DNA of 64,000 nucleotides from Longimicrobiales bacterium (lineage in GTDB: Bacteria; Gemmatimonadota; Gemmatimonadetes; Longimicrobiales; Gaopeijiaceae): contig OX638356.1 of assembly GCA_951813395.1 (NCBI GenBank), positions 3,980,501 through 4,044,500 of the forward strand, given 5' to 3'. Of the stretch, positions 2,955 through 9,241 are shown piece by piece. The notes beneath the pieces are model-generated. The model did not search any database. It was not told the origin of the DNA and saw only the letters and a list, made by a program, of their open reading frames with translations. Position 1 is the stretch's first letter. The number at the start of each line of letters is the position of its first letter. Made by a program: the position numbers and the translations under genes.

Positions 2955-5336
2955 ATGCGTCTGACGGATACAACTTCCGGGGTGGCCGCCCGAAGCCGCC
3001 CTCCGTACCTGTGGGCCGCGGCGGCGGCCGCGAGCGTGGGACTGCTCTACGCCCTGACGCTGGCCCCCACCACGGCGTTCTGGGACACCAGCGAGTACAT
3101 TGCGACCGCTCACATTCTCGGAATACCGCATCCGCCGGGGAATCCGCTGTTCGTCGTCCTGGCCCGGACCTGGGAGATCATTCTCAGTCCCCTGGGTCTC
3201 TCCACCGCCGTCAGCATCAACCTCTTCTCCGCGTTGATGGGGGCGCTTTCCCACGGACTGTGGTTCCTGGTCGTGCATCACGTTCTCCGGCATTTCTCCG
3301 ACAGCCGCCGCTTCAGGCTCGTCGGGGCCGCCGCCGCGGTGCTGTTGAGCGCCACGGCCTTCACGGTCTGGAACCAGTCCAACGTCAACGAGAAGGTCTA
3401 CACCGTCTCGCTGTTCACGATTGCGCTCCTTTCCTGGCTCGCGTTTCGGTGGAGGGAACGCGTCGGCCAGCGCGGCAACGACAACATCCTCGTGCTGATC
3501 GTCTTCCTCCTTGCGCTCTCGGTCGGCAATCACCTGATGGCGTTCCTGGCGGCCCCGGCGCTGCTCGTGTTCGTCCTCGCGGTCCGCCCGCGCGTCTTCG
3601 GCAACCCAAGGCTGTACCCGGTCGCGATTGCGGCAGTCGTCGCGGGTCTCAGCATTCACCTGTTCCTGCCCGTGCGTTCGGAGCTCGGCCCCGTGATCAA
3701 CGAAGCCGAACCGATCTGCGAGGGCGTCGGCGAGGCGCTGGGCAGCATCGTCACCTACGGGATCGCGGGGTGCGAGGACCTTTCCGAGGCACTCAAGCGG
3801 GAGCAGTACGACAAGCCGCCCCTGATCCCGCGTCAGGCGCATCTCGCGTCGCAGATTCAGAACTGGCTCCAGTACTTCGACTGGCAGTGGGCTCGTGGCC
3901 TGTCCGCCAACGATGTGCTGTTCGGGAACAGCAGACTTGCGCTGACGGCACTGTTCATCGGACTCGGGGTGTTCGGTCTGGCCGAGCACTACCGGCGCGA
4001 CCGCGCCAGCTGGCTATACCTGATCTCCCTCTTCGGGGTGCTCTCGGCCGGGCTCGTCTTCTATCTGAACTTCAAGTACGGGTACTCGATGCCGGATCTG
4101 GAAGGTGAGGACCTTCAGCGGGCGATGGACCGCATGGGCGCCCTGACGCCGGACCAGGTGAAGGAGGTGCGTGAGAGGGACTACTTCTTTGTCGTCGGCT
4201 TCTCGGTCTGGGGTCTCATCGCGGGCATCGGCATTGTGGCGCTGTGGGAGCGGTTGACCCGGAAATCGGGCCGGCCTGCCGGGTACACGGCGCCGGTGCT
4301 CGCGCTGGCGGCAATCCCCCTTGTGCTGAACTTCGGCTTGGCAAGCCGGGGGGGAGACTACGCCGCGCGTGACTGGGCCCACAACCTCCTCATGAGCGTC
4401 GAGCCGTACGGGCTGCTCTTCACGAACGGCGACAACGACACCTTTCCGCTCTGGTATCTGCAAGAGGTGGAGGGCATCCGGCGCGACGTCACCGTGGCGG
4501 TCACCTCGTACCTGAACACCGACTGGTATGTCAAGCAGCTGCGCGCCCTGACCCGCCCGTGCACGGCGGAACAGGATCCCGACGCGGACCCCACCCGCAT
4601 CGTGTGCCAGCGCCCGTATACGGCAGAGAACACCGGCGCCATGTACACGCACGATCCGGCGGAGGCCGAAGCCGCCGGCAAGACGCCCATTCTCGTGGAC
4701 GAGCCGGTCCGGCCTCCGACGCGCGCGATCTTTCGCGACGACCTGGACGACGCCATCATCGACCAGGTGGTGCGCAGCTACGTTCCGATCGACGAGCCTC
4801 GCGACATCGACCTTGGTGCCGTGACCGCCAGCATGGCGGCCGGACAGTACCTCTACCCCTGGCACCAGTTCGCGCTTGCGGCGATCGCGAACTCCCTCGG
4901 GGACAGGCCGGTGTACTTTGCCTCGAGCGGCAGCGCCGCCCAGACATTCGGTTTGCGCCCCCAGGTCATCAGGCAGGGCCTGGCCTTCCGCCTGTCGCCC
5001 GGGGACCCTGCCGAGCTGTCATCGCGGGGGGTCGCGGCCAGCCTGATTACCTCGCCCTATGCGGGCGTGATCGGGCCATGGGTGGATATTCCGCGCACCC
5101 GGCTATTGGTCGACAGCGTGTTCGTTCATCGATCCGGGATTCCCGACGAGTGGGACTACTGGCCGGATCGTTCGACGCGGGGGATTCCCAACTACTACGC
5201 CTGGGTCTACCGCGCGCTCCGCCAGGACGCCGTCACCCGCAACGACATCGATGACATGGCGGCGCTGCAGGGCCGCGTGGAGGCGTGGACCCGGCTCGGC
5301 GCGATACCGGTTCCGACCGGGGAGGTGCAGCGCTAG
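2955..5336 (+). CDS. DUF2723 (TMEM260-like) multi-pass membrane protein, putative glycosyltransferase
   Basis: A 793-residue membrane protein. The N-terminal segment has a helix (YLWAAAAAASVGLLYALTL) followed directly by the acidic first-loop motif FWDTSEYIATAHILGIPHPPGNPLF. This is the hallmark of DUF2723 and resembles the DxE-type loop of GT-C glycosyltransferases. About ten further hydrophobic helices run to roughly residue 480, followed by a soluble C-terminal half beginning near GDNDTFPLWYLQEVEGIRRDV. Eukaryotic TMEM260 transfers mannose to proteins; bacterial members are common in Bacteroidota and Gemmatimonadota, and their substrates are mostly unknown. The GT-C role is therefore a family-level inference. 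It is divergent from trpE and convergent with the Rad50-like gene. Confidence 0.85.
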   Translation: MRLTDTTSGVAARSRPPYLWAAAAAASVGLLYALTLAPTTAFWDTSEYIATAHILGIPHPPGNPLFVVLARTWEIILSPLGLSTAVSINLFSALMGALSHGLWFLVVHHVLRHFSDSRRFRLVGAAAAVLLSATAFTVWNQSNVNEKVYTVSLFTIALLSWLAFRWRERVGQRGNDNILVLIVFLLALSVGNHLMAFLAAPALLVFVLAVRPRVFGNPRLYPVAIAAVVAGLSIHLFLPVRSELGPVINEAEPICEGVGEALGSIVTYGIAGCEDLSEALKREQYDKPPLIPRQAHLASQIQNWLQYFDWQWARGLSANDVLFGNSRLALTALFIGLGVFGLAEHYRRDRASWLYLISLFGVLSAGLVFYLNFKYGYSMPDLEGEDLQRAMDRMGALTPDQVKEVRERDYFFVVGFSVWGLIAGIGIVALWERLTRKSGRPAGYTAPVLALAAIPLVLNFGLASRGGDYAARDWAHNLLMSVEPYGLLFTNGDNDTFPLWYLQEVEGIRRDVTVAVTSYLNTDWYVKQLRALTRPCTAEQDPDADPTRIVCQRPYTAENTGAMYTHDPAEAEAAGKTPILVDEPVRPPTRAIFRDDLDDAIIDQVVRSYVPIDEPRDIDLGAVTASMAAGQYLYPWHQFALAAIANSLGDRPVYFASSGSAAQTFGLRPQVIRQGLAFRLSPGDPAELSSRGVAASLITSPYAGVIGPWVDIPRTRLLVDSVFVHRSGIPDEWDYWPDRSTRGIPNYYAWVYRALRQDAVTRNDIDDMAALQGRVEAWTRLGAIPVPTGEVQR

Positions 5337-5343
5337 ACCTGGA

Positions 5344-6813
5344 TTAGTCGATCTGCAGCCAGATCGTCCCCAGGCCCGATCGGTCACGGCGCAGGCGGCG
5401 TCCCTCGGGGACGTCCTCGACCCTGTAGAGCAGATCGAAGCACTCCGGGAATGCCGAAGCGACTCCGGACGTGGCCTTGACCAGGAGCAGGGGGATTCGC
5501 CGCGTGAGGTGTACCAGTTCGACCAGCGCTCTGTGGACGTCTTCCCGCCCGAGACGGTTTAGACCGGCGGGCAGGACCAATGAATGCAACGGTACGCCGG
5601 CATCCACCGCCAGCTCCGCCAATGCGATCCTGACCGCCAACTCGAGAGCCGCGAATTCCTTGCCGCCCCGGCGTCCCCCGTCGGCCCAGTCCGCAAAAAG
5701 CGCCGGGAAGACCCCCGCCAGGCGTCCTCCCGTCAGCGACAGCACCTTGCCGTGGATGCGCGCGCGGACGCGTTCACGCGTATCGCGCACAAGCCCGGCC
5801 CGCGTTTCTTCCATCTCGGCGCTCCCGCGCCGCCCGCCCAGCCGGGCTTCCAGGGCCACCAACTCCTTCAGACGACCGGTCGCGGCCTCCACCTCCAACC
5901 CCTGGATCTTCCGGCGCTCCAGCTCCTCGGACAGCTCGTTCACGGCGCTGTCCAGCTCGATCGCCCTGGTTTCGATCGCCTTGAGATCGTCGGGTTTGCG
6001 TTCAAGCTGATCCCTGCGCCTCCGCCACCAGCGTCCGTCCTGCACGACGGCTTCCCATTCCTCACGGCGGGCATTCCGCACGACTCCGGCGCTATCCTGC
6101 AGCGGCCGCCCACAGCTGCGGCACGCGGCCTCGTCCCCCTCCTCGTCGAGGCGCTTGAGGCGGTCCCGCAGCTCGCGTTCGCGATCCCGGTACAGCAACA
6201 GCCGCGTCTCGGCATCCTGGCGCTCGCGCACCCACGCCATCATCCCCGCCTCCGCGTCCCCATGCACCTCCGTGGCTTCTCCACGCACTTCCCGCAACTG
6301 CGCCTCCAGCGCCTCCACGCCCTCACCGGACCGATTCAGCCGCTCCACATCCTCCTTCGCCTCGCGGATCATGCGACGCACGAATCCGTCCAGCGCCCCG
6401 TCGGCCACGGAGTCACCGTCCCCTTCCGGCGCGAGCAGGCGCCCCAACTCACGTACCTTGCGGGCGGTCTCGGGACCCTGGCTAAGCGTGCCCGCCGCCG
6501 ACAGCCATGTCGTCACGGGTCCGCCACCGAACCACACGGCCGCGTACTCCTCGCGCGAGAGGGCGTGCGCGGCCAGTATCGGCGCCAGGACCTCCTCGAA
6601 GGCCCGGCCGCCCACCCCCATGGTCCCGTCGCCCGTGCGTACCAGGACCCTCGGTCCGCCAGGTCGACCCGGCCTCGTAAAGCCCTCGCGCAGCGAGGAC
6701 ATGAACTCCCCCCAGAGGGGGCCGCCATCCGCGGCGAAGGCGACCAGACCACGCGCGTCCTGGAGGTCGAGCACCGGACCGCGCAGACCCGCCTGCAGCA
6801 CATCGATCTTCAT
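5344..6813 (-). CDS. Rad50/SbcC/YhaN-like protein lacking ATPase motifs, with zinc-hook CxxC
   Basis: A 489-residue protein laid out like a miniature Rad50: N-terminal lobe (1-130), coiled coil (about 140-220), a CRSC zinc-hook-type motif at residues 231-234, a return coiled coil (about 250-350) and a C-terminal lobe (355-489). The ATPase residues are gone. Where a P-loop GPNGAGKS is expected there is AADGGPLWGEF (residues 27-37). The signature region reads RRGGKEFAALELAVRIALAE (381-400) without LSGG. Walker B reads SLVLPAGLNRLG (411-422), with Pro-Ala in place of Asp-Glu. It starts by a 4-base ATGA overlap with the Mre11-like gene, so the two are probably made together as a complex. A structural or DNA-bridging role is inferred. 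Rad50 ancestry is a reading of architecture and position, not of a search. Confidence 0.72.
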   Translation of the reverse strand: MKIDVLQAGLRGPVLDLQDARGLVAFAADGGPLWGEFMSSLREGFTRPGRPGGPRVLVRTGDGTMGVGGRAFEEVLAPILAAHALSREEYAAVWFGGGPVTTWLSAAGTLSQGPETARKVRELGRLLAPEGDGDSVADGALDGFVRRMIREAKEDVERLNRSGEGVEALEAQLREVRGEATEVHGDAEAGMMAWVRERQDAETRLLLYRDRERELRDRLKRLDEEGDEAACRSCGRPLQDSAGVVRNARREEWEAVVQDGRWWRRRRDQLERKPDDLKAIETRAIELDSAVNELSEELERRKIQGLEVEAATGRLKELVALEARLGGRRGSAEMEETRAGLVRDTRERVRARIHGKVLSLTGGRLAGVFPALFADWADGGRRGGKEFAALELAVRIALAELAVDAGVPLHSLVLPAGLNRLGREDVHRALVELVHLTRRIPLLLVKATSGVASAFPECFDLLYRVEDVPEGRRLRRDRSGLGTIWLQID

Positions 6814-7898
6814 GCCGGCGCCCTCCCCGCCACGGGGACCGCACCAGGCGCGGACCCGACCAGCCCGGACACTTCGGCACCGGACTCGCCGCGGCCACGA
6901 CGCGCGCCCCTGTCACCTCTCCCGTGCGAGGTTCCCTGTCCCGGCAGCGCGTCTATCCTCAGTTCGGCCACCCGTCGCCGCACCCGCGCCAGGACCTCGC
7001 GGTCGAGCACGGCAAGATCGTCGGCCGAAAGGCCCCTCACCGGAATCCGCAACAGCTTCCCGTCTATCCCCCCGGGGACTCCTCCCAGCGCCTCGCTCAA
7101 GCGCCGCGTCACCGTCGCGGTCCCGCCACCCGTCGCTTCCACGGGCGCCAGGCTCACGGCGGCCCGCGCCTCCACGGGCCAGAAGGTCACTTCGCGGCCC
7201 GATCCCGGACCACGGCCGGATCGCGCCTTGTCCGCCCCGAGCCGAGCGGTGATGAACCCCTTGGCCGTCGCGGCCTCGGCCCACGGATCGGCACCCACCC
7301 GTTCGAGAGAACCCGCGTAGTGGGCGCGCTCGGTGATGGTGGTGTAGGTGTGGTTGGATCCCAGCGCGACGTAGTCCCATCCGTCCAGCCGTATCCGGAC
7401 GGCGTGGGAACGTCCGGCCGCCAGCGCAGCGTGCATGACGAGCACGTTGCACGTGGCCGCCGGGTCCGGTGCGAGATCGACGGTGCGAGACCCCATCAGC
7501 GCGCGGTGCGGCACCAGGGTGACGCTGACCTCGCCTTCACGCAGGCTCAGCCGACGGACTGCATTGGAGGCCACCTCGACCGCCTCCATGGCGCCGACCA
7601 CCGTGAGCGGCCCGTCCCGGTCGGCGTCCAACGGTGTGTCCCTCGCTCCGGCAGCAACCGCCACAACAACCCCGGGAAGTCTCTCGCGCAGCGTACGCAC
7701 CGCGCGTCCGAAGGCCGCGATCGGAGTGGCCGTTACGTCGGGGTGGTCGAAGACATCACCCGACACGACCACCAGCTCCACGCCGATCTCCGCAATTCGC
7801 GCCAGCGCGGTCTCGAAGATCCGTAGAACGTCCCGGGCCCGGCCCGCTCCGGCACCGCCGTACCCCAGGTGCAGATCCGAGATGTGCGCCAGCTTCAC
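6810..7898 (-). CDS. Mre11/SbcD/YhaO-like metallophosphoesterase fold with lost catalytic residues
   Basis: A 362-residue calcineurin-like phosphoesterase. The GTG at 7898 is chosen because it overlaps the upstream stop (GTGA) and has GGGAGG 8 bases before it; the protein then begins VKLAHISDLHLG, as Mre11 proteins do. Motif I (D8, H10) and motif II (SGDVFD, D48) are intact and the motif IV His (VMHAA, H156) is present. Motif III GNHD is changed to GARD (84-87), losing the metal Asn and the catalytic His. Motif V GHxH is changed to GSNH (180-183), losing one metal His. Nuclease activity is therefore doubtful. It is coupled to the Rad50-like gene downstream and the membrane protein upstream. 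The C-terminal 40 residues are low-complexity Gly/Arg/Ala. Confidence 0.78.
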   Translation of the reverse strand: MKLAHISDLHLGYGGAGAGRARDVLRIFETALARIAEIGVELVVVSGDVFDHPDVTATPIAAFGRAVRTLRERLPGVVVAVAAGARDTPLDADRDGPLTVVGAMEAVEVASNAVRRLSLREGEVSVTLVPHRALMGSRTVDLAPDPAATCNVLVMHAALAAGRSHAVRIRLDGWDYVALGSNHTYTTITERAHYAGSLERVGADPWAEAATAKGFITARLGADKARSGRGPGSGREVTFWPVEARAAVSLAPVEATGGGTATVTRRLSEALGGVPGGIDGKLLRIPVRGLSADDLAVLDREVLARVRRRVAELRIDALPGQGTSHGRGDRGARRGRGESGAEVSGLVGSAPGAVPVAGRAPA

Positions 7899-9241
7899 GC
7901 CGGATCCTCCCGTCGGTCCTCCGCCGTCTGTGCCGGCAGCGGTGACGACCGCATGCCCGGCAACGGTCCCGGCGGTTCCGGTGACCTGCTGAAACACCAG
8001 AGTTCATCCCTCCGCGGAGCCAGACGGGGAGGCCCCCGAGAGCCCTCCACGGCTCCCACGTAGCGGACGACATCCATCCCCGCCGCGAACCCGGCATCCG
8101 CGAGCGTGTCGGGCAGTCGCCCGCGGGGACCACGGATCCAGGCGCGTTCGATCTCCTTGTCCCGCAACGCGCACAGGAGTACCCCCAGCGGTTGCGAATG
8201 AGCCAGCGACTCACCCAGGGCTCCCCACTCGGCCACGACCGTGAGGCCGCCCTCCTCGGGGATCAGAGAAGACACCATCCGACTATCGTCCCACCCGAAG
8301 CCCCTGCACGCCAGAGCCCGCACGGCCGCATCCGGCTCGTACATCGTCCAGGCCCGCCGTTGGGGCTGGACGGACCAGCTGCCCGCACCCACGTAGAACA
8401 CGGCAGCGTCCTCGGCCAGCGTGCTCTCGACGGCCGTCCGCCAGTCCCCCGCGGGCGGGCGATCGACCGCAACGTCCCGCCCGCGCTCGAGCAGTACGTG
8501 GACCGTCGTTTCCGGAATCAGGGTGTGCCACGCCTCGAAGCGAAGTTCGGGACGGTCCGGACTATGCAGGACCATGCGTCGGCGGGGCACCCGGTCAAAG
8601 ATCCACCCCTGGAAGCGCGCCCCCGCCGCGGCCAGTACCGTGGCTCCGAGGAACGCCGTGACGGCCAGGACCGGACGGCCCAGAAAGGTACCGACCATCA
8701 GCGATCCGACCACGGTACCAAGGAGAACGCCGAGCCAGACCTGCCGTCTGCCGCTCGTTTCGAGTACGGCGGCGAAACCGCCGAGCCTGCCGAGAACCCC
8801 GCCGGCAAAGTAGGCGGGAAGCGCGGCCGTGAGCGCGAGTCCGGTCCCCTGGGCCAGGGCCACGCCCTCGAACCCGGCCATTGCCTCCCACACGGCCGTG
8901 AACCCGGCGCCAAGAAGCAGCGCCACCAGAAAACCCACCCATCCGCGCGCCGCCGCGGGGACCGTCTCCTCGCTTTGACTTCCGTTGCCCACCCAGAGCC
9001 CGGCGATCAGGGAGACGGCCGCGATTCCGAGCAGCACCGCCAGCGCCCGCAGCAGGCCATGCGTTCCGTCAAGCACGCTCCCCGGACCGGAGGCAAGCGG
9101 ATCGGCCACTCCGGCACCGAGGCCCCTGACCAGCCACTGCGCATCGTAGAGAAGGACGGCCGCGCCCGTTGCGATCGCGATCGCCAGAGACGTTCCCACG
9201 AACAGCGCGGGAATCCAGAGCATGCGCCGGGCTCTGGTCAT
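7895..9241 (-). CDS. Membrane protein of unknown function in the Mre11/Rad50-like operon
   Basis: A 448-residue protein I do not recognise. The first ~215 residues contain about six hydrophobic helices (first at roughly 8-32, then near 62-85, 103-122, 130-155, 168-190 and 190-207). The remainder is a soluble domain of about 230 residues with no catalytic motif that I can name. The ATG overlaps the flavin reductase stop (ATGA) and its own stop overlaps the Mre11-like GTG start (GTGA), so it belongs to one translationally coupled unit. It might anchor the following pair at the membrane, but only gene order supports that. Confidence 0.6.
   Translation of the reverse strand: MTRARRMLWIPALFVGTSLAIAIATGAAVLLYDAQWLVRGLGAGVADPLASGPGSVLDGTHGLLRALAVLLGIAAVSLIAGLWVGNGSQSEETVPAAARGWVGFLVALLLGAGFTAVWEAMAGFEGVALAQGTGLALTAALPAYFAGGVLGRLGGFAAVLETSGRRQVWLGVLLGTVVGSLMVGTFLGRPVLAVTAFLGATVLAAAGARFQGWIFDRVPRRRMVLHSPDRPELRFEAWHTLIPETTVHVLLERGRDVAVDRPPAGDWRTAVESTLAEDAAVFYVGAGSWSVQPQRRAWTMYEPDAAVRALACRGFGWDDSRMVSSLIPEEGGLTVVAEWGALGESLAHSQPLGVLLCALRDKEIERAWIRGPRGRLPDTLADAGFAAGMDVVRYVGAVEGSRGPPRLAPRRDELWCFSRSPEPPGPLPGMRSSPLPAQTAEDRREDPA

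Follow-up and report, generated by a model that had tools for sequence, protein, structure and literature searches.

A Mre11-Rad50-like gene pair with degenerate catalytic motifs in a family-level group of Gemmatimonadota

The closest described systems to the gene pair analyzed here are the archaeal and bacterial Mre11-Rad50 complexes (SbcCD; P. furiosus and M. jannaschii Mre11), with which it has in common the gene order, the ABC-head and nuclease/cap folds, the zinc-hook apex and the ligands of metal site 1. In Mre11, site 1 is formed by D8, H10, D49 and H208 and site 2 by D49, N84, H173 and H206. Point mutants are the usual means of asking whether Mre11-Rad50 has essential non-catalytic work, such as end tethering, bridging or sensing. 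Unlike these complexes, the pair lacks Walker A and B, the ABC signature, the H-loop and N84/H85/H206. The Rad50 zinc hook has been described as a constitutive dimerization module (PMC6969161). The E. coli SbcCD variant H84Q was called nuclease-deficient and retained its DNA-stimulated ATPase (PMC6265447). In this variant and in the engineered P. furiosus H85S, the same catalytic histidine is substituted as in the family described below. Both are laboratory single mutants, whereas the loss found here is natural, clade-wide and affects multiple residues in both subunits.

Fusion proteins of Mre11 and Rad50 are known as well, for example Mimivirus R555 and SbcDC of Clostridium kluyveri and others (PMC3175470). 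In the R555-type fusions the Mre11 half is located ahead of the Rad50 half, as it is in 45 of the 79 relatives of the window pair. Mimivirus R555 keeps Walker A and B and most of the nuclease motifs (PMC3175470), in contrast to the family presented here, which has lost them. A one-polypeptide fusion of the R555 type was not encountered in the window, where the pair is split.

The window, meaning the whole analyzed stretch of 64,000 nucleotides, carries on its minus strand a pseudo-Mre11 gene (SbcD-like; 6810..7898, 362 aa, GTG start) and a pseudo-Rad50 gene (SbcC-like; 5344..6813, 489 aa, ATG start). Both frames are open and are joined by an overlap of 4 nt (ATGA). The following motif positions, all on the minus strand, were determined by alignment. 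In pseudo-Mre11, GARD replaces GNHD (residues 84-87; 7638..7649) and GSNH replaces GHxH (residues 180-183; 7350..7361), the first His of the latter being lost and the second kept. The correspondence to P. furiosus residues was read from the intact ortholog aligned with 1ii7. D8, H10, D48 and H183 are retained (P. furiosus D8, H10, D49 and H208), as is H156 (P. furiosus H173), and P. furiosus N84, H85 and H206 are replaced by A85, R86 and S181, respectively.

Pseudo-Rad50 consists of an ABC-type head fold, a shortened coiled coil and a zinc-hook apex; its length of 489 aa compares with approximately 815-910 aa in the intact orthologs. The Walker A site is emptied (AADGGPLW for GPNGAGKS, residues 28-35; 6709..6732), with W34 at the position of the P-loop Lys. 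The ABC signature site is emptied as well (GGKE for SGGE, residues 383-386; 5656..5667), the Walker B Asp-Glu is replaced by Pro415-Ala416 (5566..5571) and a T is found at the H-loop His site. The zinc-hook motif CRSC is present at residues 231-234 (6112..6123). A misalignment of the motifs was rejected, because the sites of the P-loop, the signature and Walker B align with those of the intact orthologs and are empty. An earlier note, made from the letters of the sequence, had described an ATGA-coupled pair with the Mre11/Rad50 layout and the CRSC at residues 231-234, the GARD and GSNH replacements, the missing P-loop and LSGG signature and the Pro-Ala at Walker B; each of these observations held.

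The profile matches of pseudo-Mre11 were weak (SbcD subfamily, E 2.6e-8; Metallophos, E 1.9e-5). Pseudo-Rad50 matched Rad50 at the level of the coil only (E 1e-3), and no Pfam family was matched by it in the profile search. Sequence profiles on their own hardly identify the pair. Its homology was secured by intact orthologs that other families of the order carry at the corresponding locus and by the structure matches.

L088, L089 and in part L090, from two further families of the window's order, carry an intact pair next to the same flanking genes. These are a flavin reductase gene on one side and, on the other side, a TMEM260-like DUF2723 gene with its neighbor. In the window, this TMEM260-like (PF11028) protein O-mannosyltransferase homolog is encoded at 2955-5336 on the plus strand and represents a conserved convergent neighbor of the pair. 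The intact ortholog is an archaeal-type Rad50 (PRK03918, E 6e-54). The window pair is orthologous to the second Mre11-Rad50 pair of the phylum, which is of archaeal type and occurs widely and in intact form outside the degenerate group (L088-L092, L203-L218); some copies share the flanking genes, and identity in the hook arm is approximately 35%. Unlike the window pair, this second pair retains GNHD, GHxH, GPNGAGKS, SGGE and LDE. A paralog of the SbcCD or YhaNO of the same genome was rejected, since the second Mre11-Rad50 pair of the phylum is a much closer relative.

Because intact pairs from other families, some at the same locus, mark the degenerate and intact pairs as orthologs, one ancestral loss suffices. 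In a tree of 72 Mre11 halves, a branch with an SH-aLRT of 99 separated the degenerate rows from the others, and one change was needed; this is a quick tree, in which long branches meet at the join of intact and degenerate rows. Both the DNA-cutting and the ATPase residues appear to have been lost a single time, in the ancestor of the family-level group of the window. The two halves are fused in 45 of 79 degenerate loci, and the split or fused state required 4-6 changes on the Mre11-half tree. This repeated fusion is good evidence that the two halves work together.

Rad50-like relatives were found in 201 of 249 genomes in the search of the phylum. In the family-level group of the window (f1, Gemmatimonadota), the degenerate pair was detected in 79 of 96 genomes, and all clear pairs contain the CxxC hook but are devoid of a P-loop, of GNHD and of an intact Walker B. 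A loss private to this genome was rejected in view of this family-wide occurrence. The alignment comprised 79 distinct degenerate Mre11 halves, 82 degenerate Rad50 halves and 9 intact outgroup rows, and the question of the earlier note whether the same residues are lost across a clade could be answered with yes. In the Mre11 halves, the metal-site-1 residues are kept almost throughout (D8 in 78/79, H10 in 77/79, D49 in 77/79 and H208 in 76/79). N84 and H85 were found in none of the 79 and H206 in 6, H173 is left in 50, and Arg replaces H85 in all 79. On the basis of these residues, pseudo-Mre11 is predicted to retain metal site 1 and to have lost site 2 together with the catalytic His.

Both hook Cys residues were identified in 82 of 82 degenerate Rad50 halves, none of which has the H-loop His or the P-loop Lys; the latter is replaced by Arg in 46 and by Trp in 21. 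Hook retention in the relatives found by pattern is partly biased, since the search patterns lay near the hook; it also holds in the set from the whole-protein search. The best-conserved stretch of pseudo-Rad50 in the family is the hook arm (residues ~190-280), an estimate free of this bias. At the Walker B acids, many genera have EE instead, and Pro-Ala, Gly-Asp or further combinations are found in the rest. More ATPase residues are lost in the genus of the window (Pro-Ala at Walker B) than in other genera, where partial Walker B acids (EE, GD) and a D-loop Asp persist, so that the loss of the ATPase may be graded. The motifs are intact in 9 of 9 aligned outgroup rows, one of which has Asp in place of H206. 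They are also intact in another 14 pairs from other families, over the length covered by the contigs; the pairs are full-size and intact in the other families sampled. A degenerate fused pair from a MAG labeled Gammaproteobacteria (L149) groups inside the Gemmatimonadota clade and is probably a mislabeled bin or contig.

The AlphaFold2 model of the window pseudo-Rad50 (48-row alignment) had a pLDDT of 89.8 and a pTM of 0.60. It shows two lobes and a long helical hairpin with the hook at its tip, the CRSC being located between helices 166-228 and 239-271. The best solved match in VIA-align was P. furiosus Rad50 3qkt (Z 16.7, rmsd 5.6, 262 residues), spanning residues 1-478 of pseudo-Rad50, with SMC and cohesin heads ranked just below; the Foldseek matches were SMC, Lamassu and Rad50 heads. 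The model suggests that an ABC-type Rad50 head of N and C lobes with an antiparallel coiled coil is retained. For the Mre11 half, a naturally fused relative (L153, 840 aa) was modeled (pLDDT 87.3, pTM 0.85). Over its first 315 residues the best agreement was with Mre11 4tug (Z 27.2, 282 residues, rmsd 3.2), and the Mre11 part also matches 3dsd, the DNA-bound P. furiosus Mre11-H85S, with Z 23.9. The Mre11 core and capping domain are thus predicted to be retained in this fused relative, which stands in for the window protein. A structure unlike Mre11/Rad50, considered earlier as a counter-indication, is contradicted by these predicted folds, for the Mre11 part via the fused relative. A defense-system reading (Lamassu LmuB or SMC-like ATPases) was rejected, as the PADLOC matches were weak, with E-values no better than 2.6e-4, and covered only the coil and hook arm, and no P-loop is present.

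The nearest named relatives of the window are the Gemmatimonadota MAGs L130, L131 and L133, whose Mre11 halves are 92-93% identical to it in the codon comparison; L125 and L129 are recorded as Longimicrobiales. In Nei-Gojobori comparisons with the three MAGs (dS 0.33-0.41), the Mre11 half had a dN/dS of 0.12 and the Rad50 half had values of 0.14-0.18. Elsewhere in the clade, pairs ranged between 0.03 and 0.29, with one outlier of 0.46 at a dS of 0.09. Inside the Rad50-like protein, values of 0.10-0.14 (N head), 0.16-0.22 (hook arm) and 0.13-0.18 (C head) were obtained; the low dN/dS of the N and C heads indicates that the emptied ATPase head is also maintained. These ratios point to purifying selection on both genes and both heads. 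A pseudogene or a sequencing error was rejected, because the frames are open in the relatives and dN/dS is low. Absent selection, and intact relatives next to a broken frame here, had been named as possible signs of decay. Selection was detected, and the intact homologs of other families stand beside window frames free of stops and frameshifts.

The genome of the window is a single contig of 4.09 Mb. It encodes an intact canonical SbcCD at 3.605 Mb (GDTGAGKS, CPVC, LSGGE, LDEG, GNHD), which is the second sbcCD that the earlier note had proposed to look for. A separate YhaO/YhaN-like pair is located at 3.931 Mb (L085; G000:C1:3925000-3941000); GNHD and GPNESGKS are present, and no zinc hook was seen in this pair. 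SbcD above the cut-off and SbcC were both found in the same 20 of 96 family genomes, 12 of which overlap with the degenerate pair. Canonical SbcCD is absent from 67 of the 79 carrier genomes in the family sample, so that the pair is generally not an accessory subunit of the SbcCD nuclease and its hook must usually pair with itself. One carrier with a degenerate fused pair (G189) has a second, divergent and motif-complete Mre11-Rad50 pair (L093, contig C160). In the genus g4 the pair is lost, and canonical SbcCD is present in all seven genomes sampled; in the two members inspected (L220, L221) the order rsgA - flavin reductase - membrane protein stands without the pair.

A polytopic membrane protein of 448 aa is encoded directly upstream of the pair (7895..9241, minus strand) and overlaps the start of pseudo-Mre11 by 4 nt. 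In 63 of 79 degenerate loci a homologous gene lies immediately upstream, and in 49 it overlaps the start of the Mre11 gene by 4 or 1 nt, so that most loci show translational coupling to a membrane-protein gene. For the window copy, no match in Pfam or NCBIfam was found; at their C-terminus some homologs have a spermidine-synthase-like domain, with a Pfam match below the cut-off (E 0.002). The membrane protein is a probable operon partner, frequent rather than obligatory. An obligate partnership was rejected, since the pair and the membrane gene each occur without the other.

With a probability of about 0.58, we interpret the pair as an ATP-independent, zinc-hook-joined DNA-binding or tethering complex that would have been kept by selection after catalytic loss. 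This interpretation draws on the orthology, the clade-wide loss, the selection, the retained fold, hook and site-1 residues and the repeated fusion of the partners. In the family ancestor, the two-metal nuclease chemistry and ATP binding and hydrolysis would have been lost, and the structural complex would then have been kept under purifying selection. The absence of nuclease and ATPase activity is predicted from the emptied motifs. By analogy with known zinc hooks, two pseudo-Rad50 subunits most likely join via the hook, and the pseudo-Mre11 core would keep one metal site for its structure. DNA binding without cutting is made plausible by the DNA-bound H85S structure and by E. coli SbcCD H84Q. 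In the cell, the assembly might tether DNA or protect its ends; without cutting and without an ATP-driven open/closed cycle, it would act as a static tether or cap. The proposal of the earlier note, a maintained pseudo-nuclease complex rather than decay, here extended to a presumed pseudo-ATPase, is supported by the clade-wide loss of the same residues, the purifying selection and the invariance of the His85-to-Arg change and the hook Cys.

The main rival to the tether or cap is a neofunctionalized one-metal phosphoesterase, in which pseudo-Mre11 would act on a new substrate through the site-1 metal, with the Arg standing in for the catalytic His, and pseudo-Rad50 would serve as a scaffold. 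Across about 80 sequences, the ligands of site 1 and the Arg-Asp pair hardly vary, beyond strict structural need; D8/H10/D49/H208 together with Arg/Asp could serve such a hydrolase, which counts against the structural reading. However, the catalytic His has been lost along with two second-site ligands (N84, H206), a di-metal centre has been proposed for the known chemistry of Mre11 (PMC6265447), and besides the Arg no new conserved catalytic candidate was seen, so that we regard this alternative as unlikely, at about one chance in five. Weak or absent selection, with frames open by chance, could be suspected from the extra loss of ATPase residues in the genus of the window, which fits drift in the head. 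The dN/dS of the pair, the open frames of its members, the invariant hook, the nearly invariant site-1 residues and the confidently predicted head fold make such a relic highly improbable.

Two further explanations place the pair beside other proteins, and both are considered improbable. As the window genome and other sampled members of its genus also carry an intact canonical SbcCD, the pair might act as its regulatory or dominant-negative partner via heteromeric pairing of the zinc hooks or of the Mre11 subunits. Against this, most carriers in the family sample (67 of 79) have neither canonical SbcC nor canonical SbcD, the fusion of the pseudo-subunits favors self-assembly, and the ancestry of the pair lies in another Mre11-Rad50 lineage than that of SbcCD. 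For the same scarcity of SbcCD, the allosteric role suggested in the earlier note is unsupported as a general function if the partner were canonical SbcCD. Alternatively, the coupled membrane protein may anchor the pair, which would then function at the cell envelope and not at DNA breaks. The frequent upstream position and short overlap of the membrane gene would fit such a complex, but several carrier lineages are without this gene, and the genus that lost the pair still keeps it at the locus.

Natural Mre11/Rad50 fusions are already known, and no earlier report of a natural Mre11-Rad50 pair with both activities lost was found in the open-access literature. Returning to the tethering or capping complex, we tentatively suggest, at somewhat less than even odds, that an ancient motor-nuclease of DNA-break repair was converted once, in this bacterial family, into an ATP-free, non-cutting, zinc-hook scaffold, often single-chain and co-translated with a membrane protein. 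This scaffold would have replaced the intact second pair and often persists without canonical SbcCD, its structural role alone being enough for selection. The family may offer structural work an ATP-independent clamp of the Rad50 fold, and it includes natural single-chain versions. As exactly the hook and one metal site are kept, a non-catalytic role is directly testable. Evolution appears to have made a separation-of-function mutant in both subunits and to have kept it across many genera, and part of the work of Mre11-Rad50 may need no catalysis at all.
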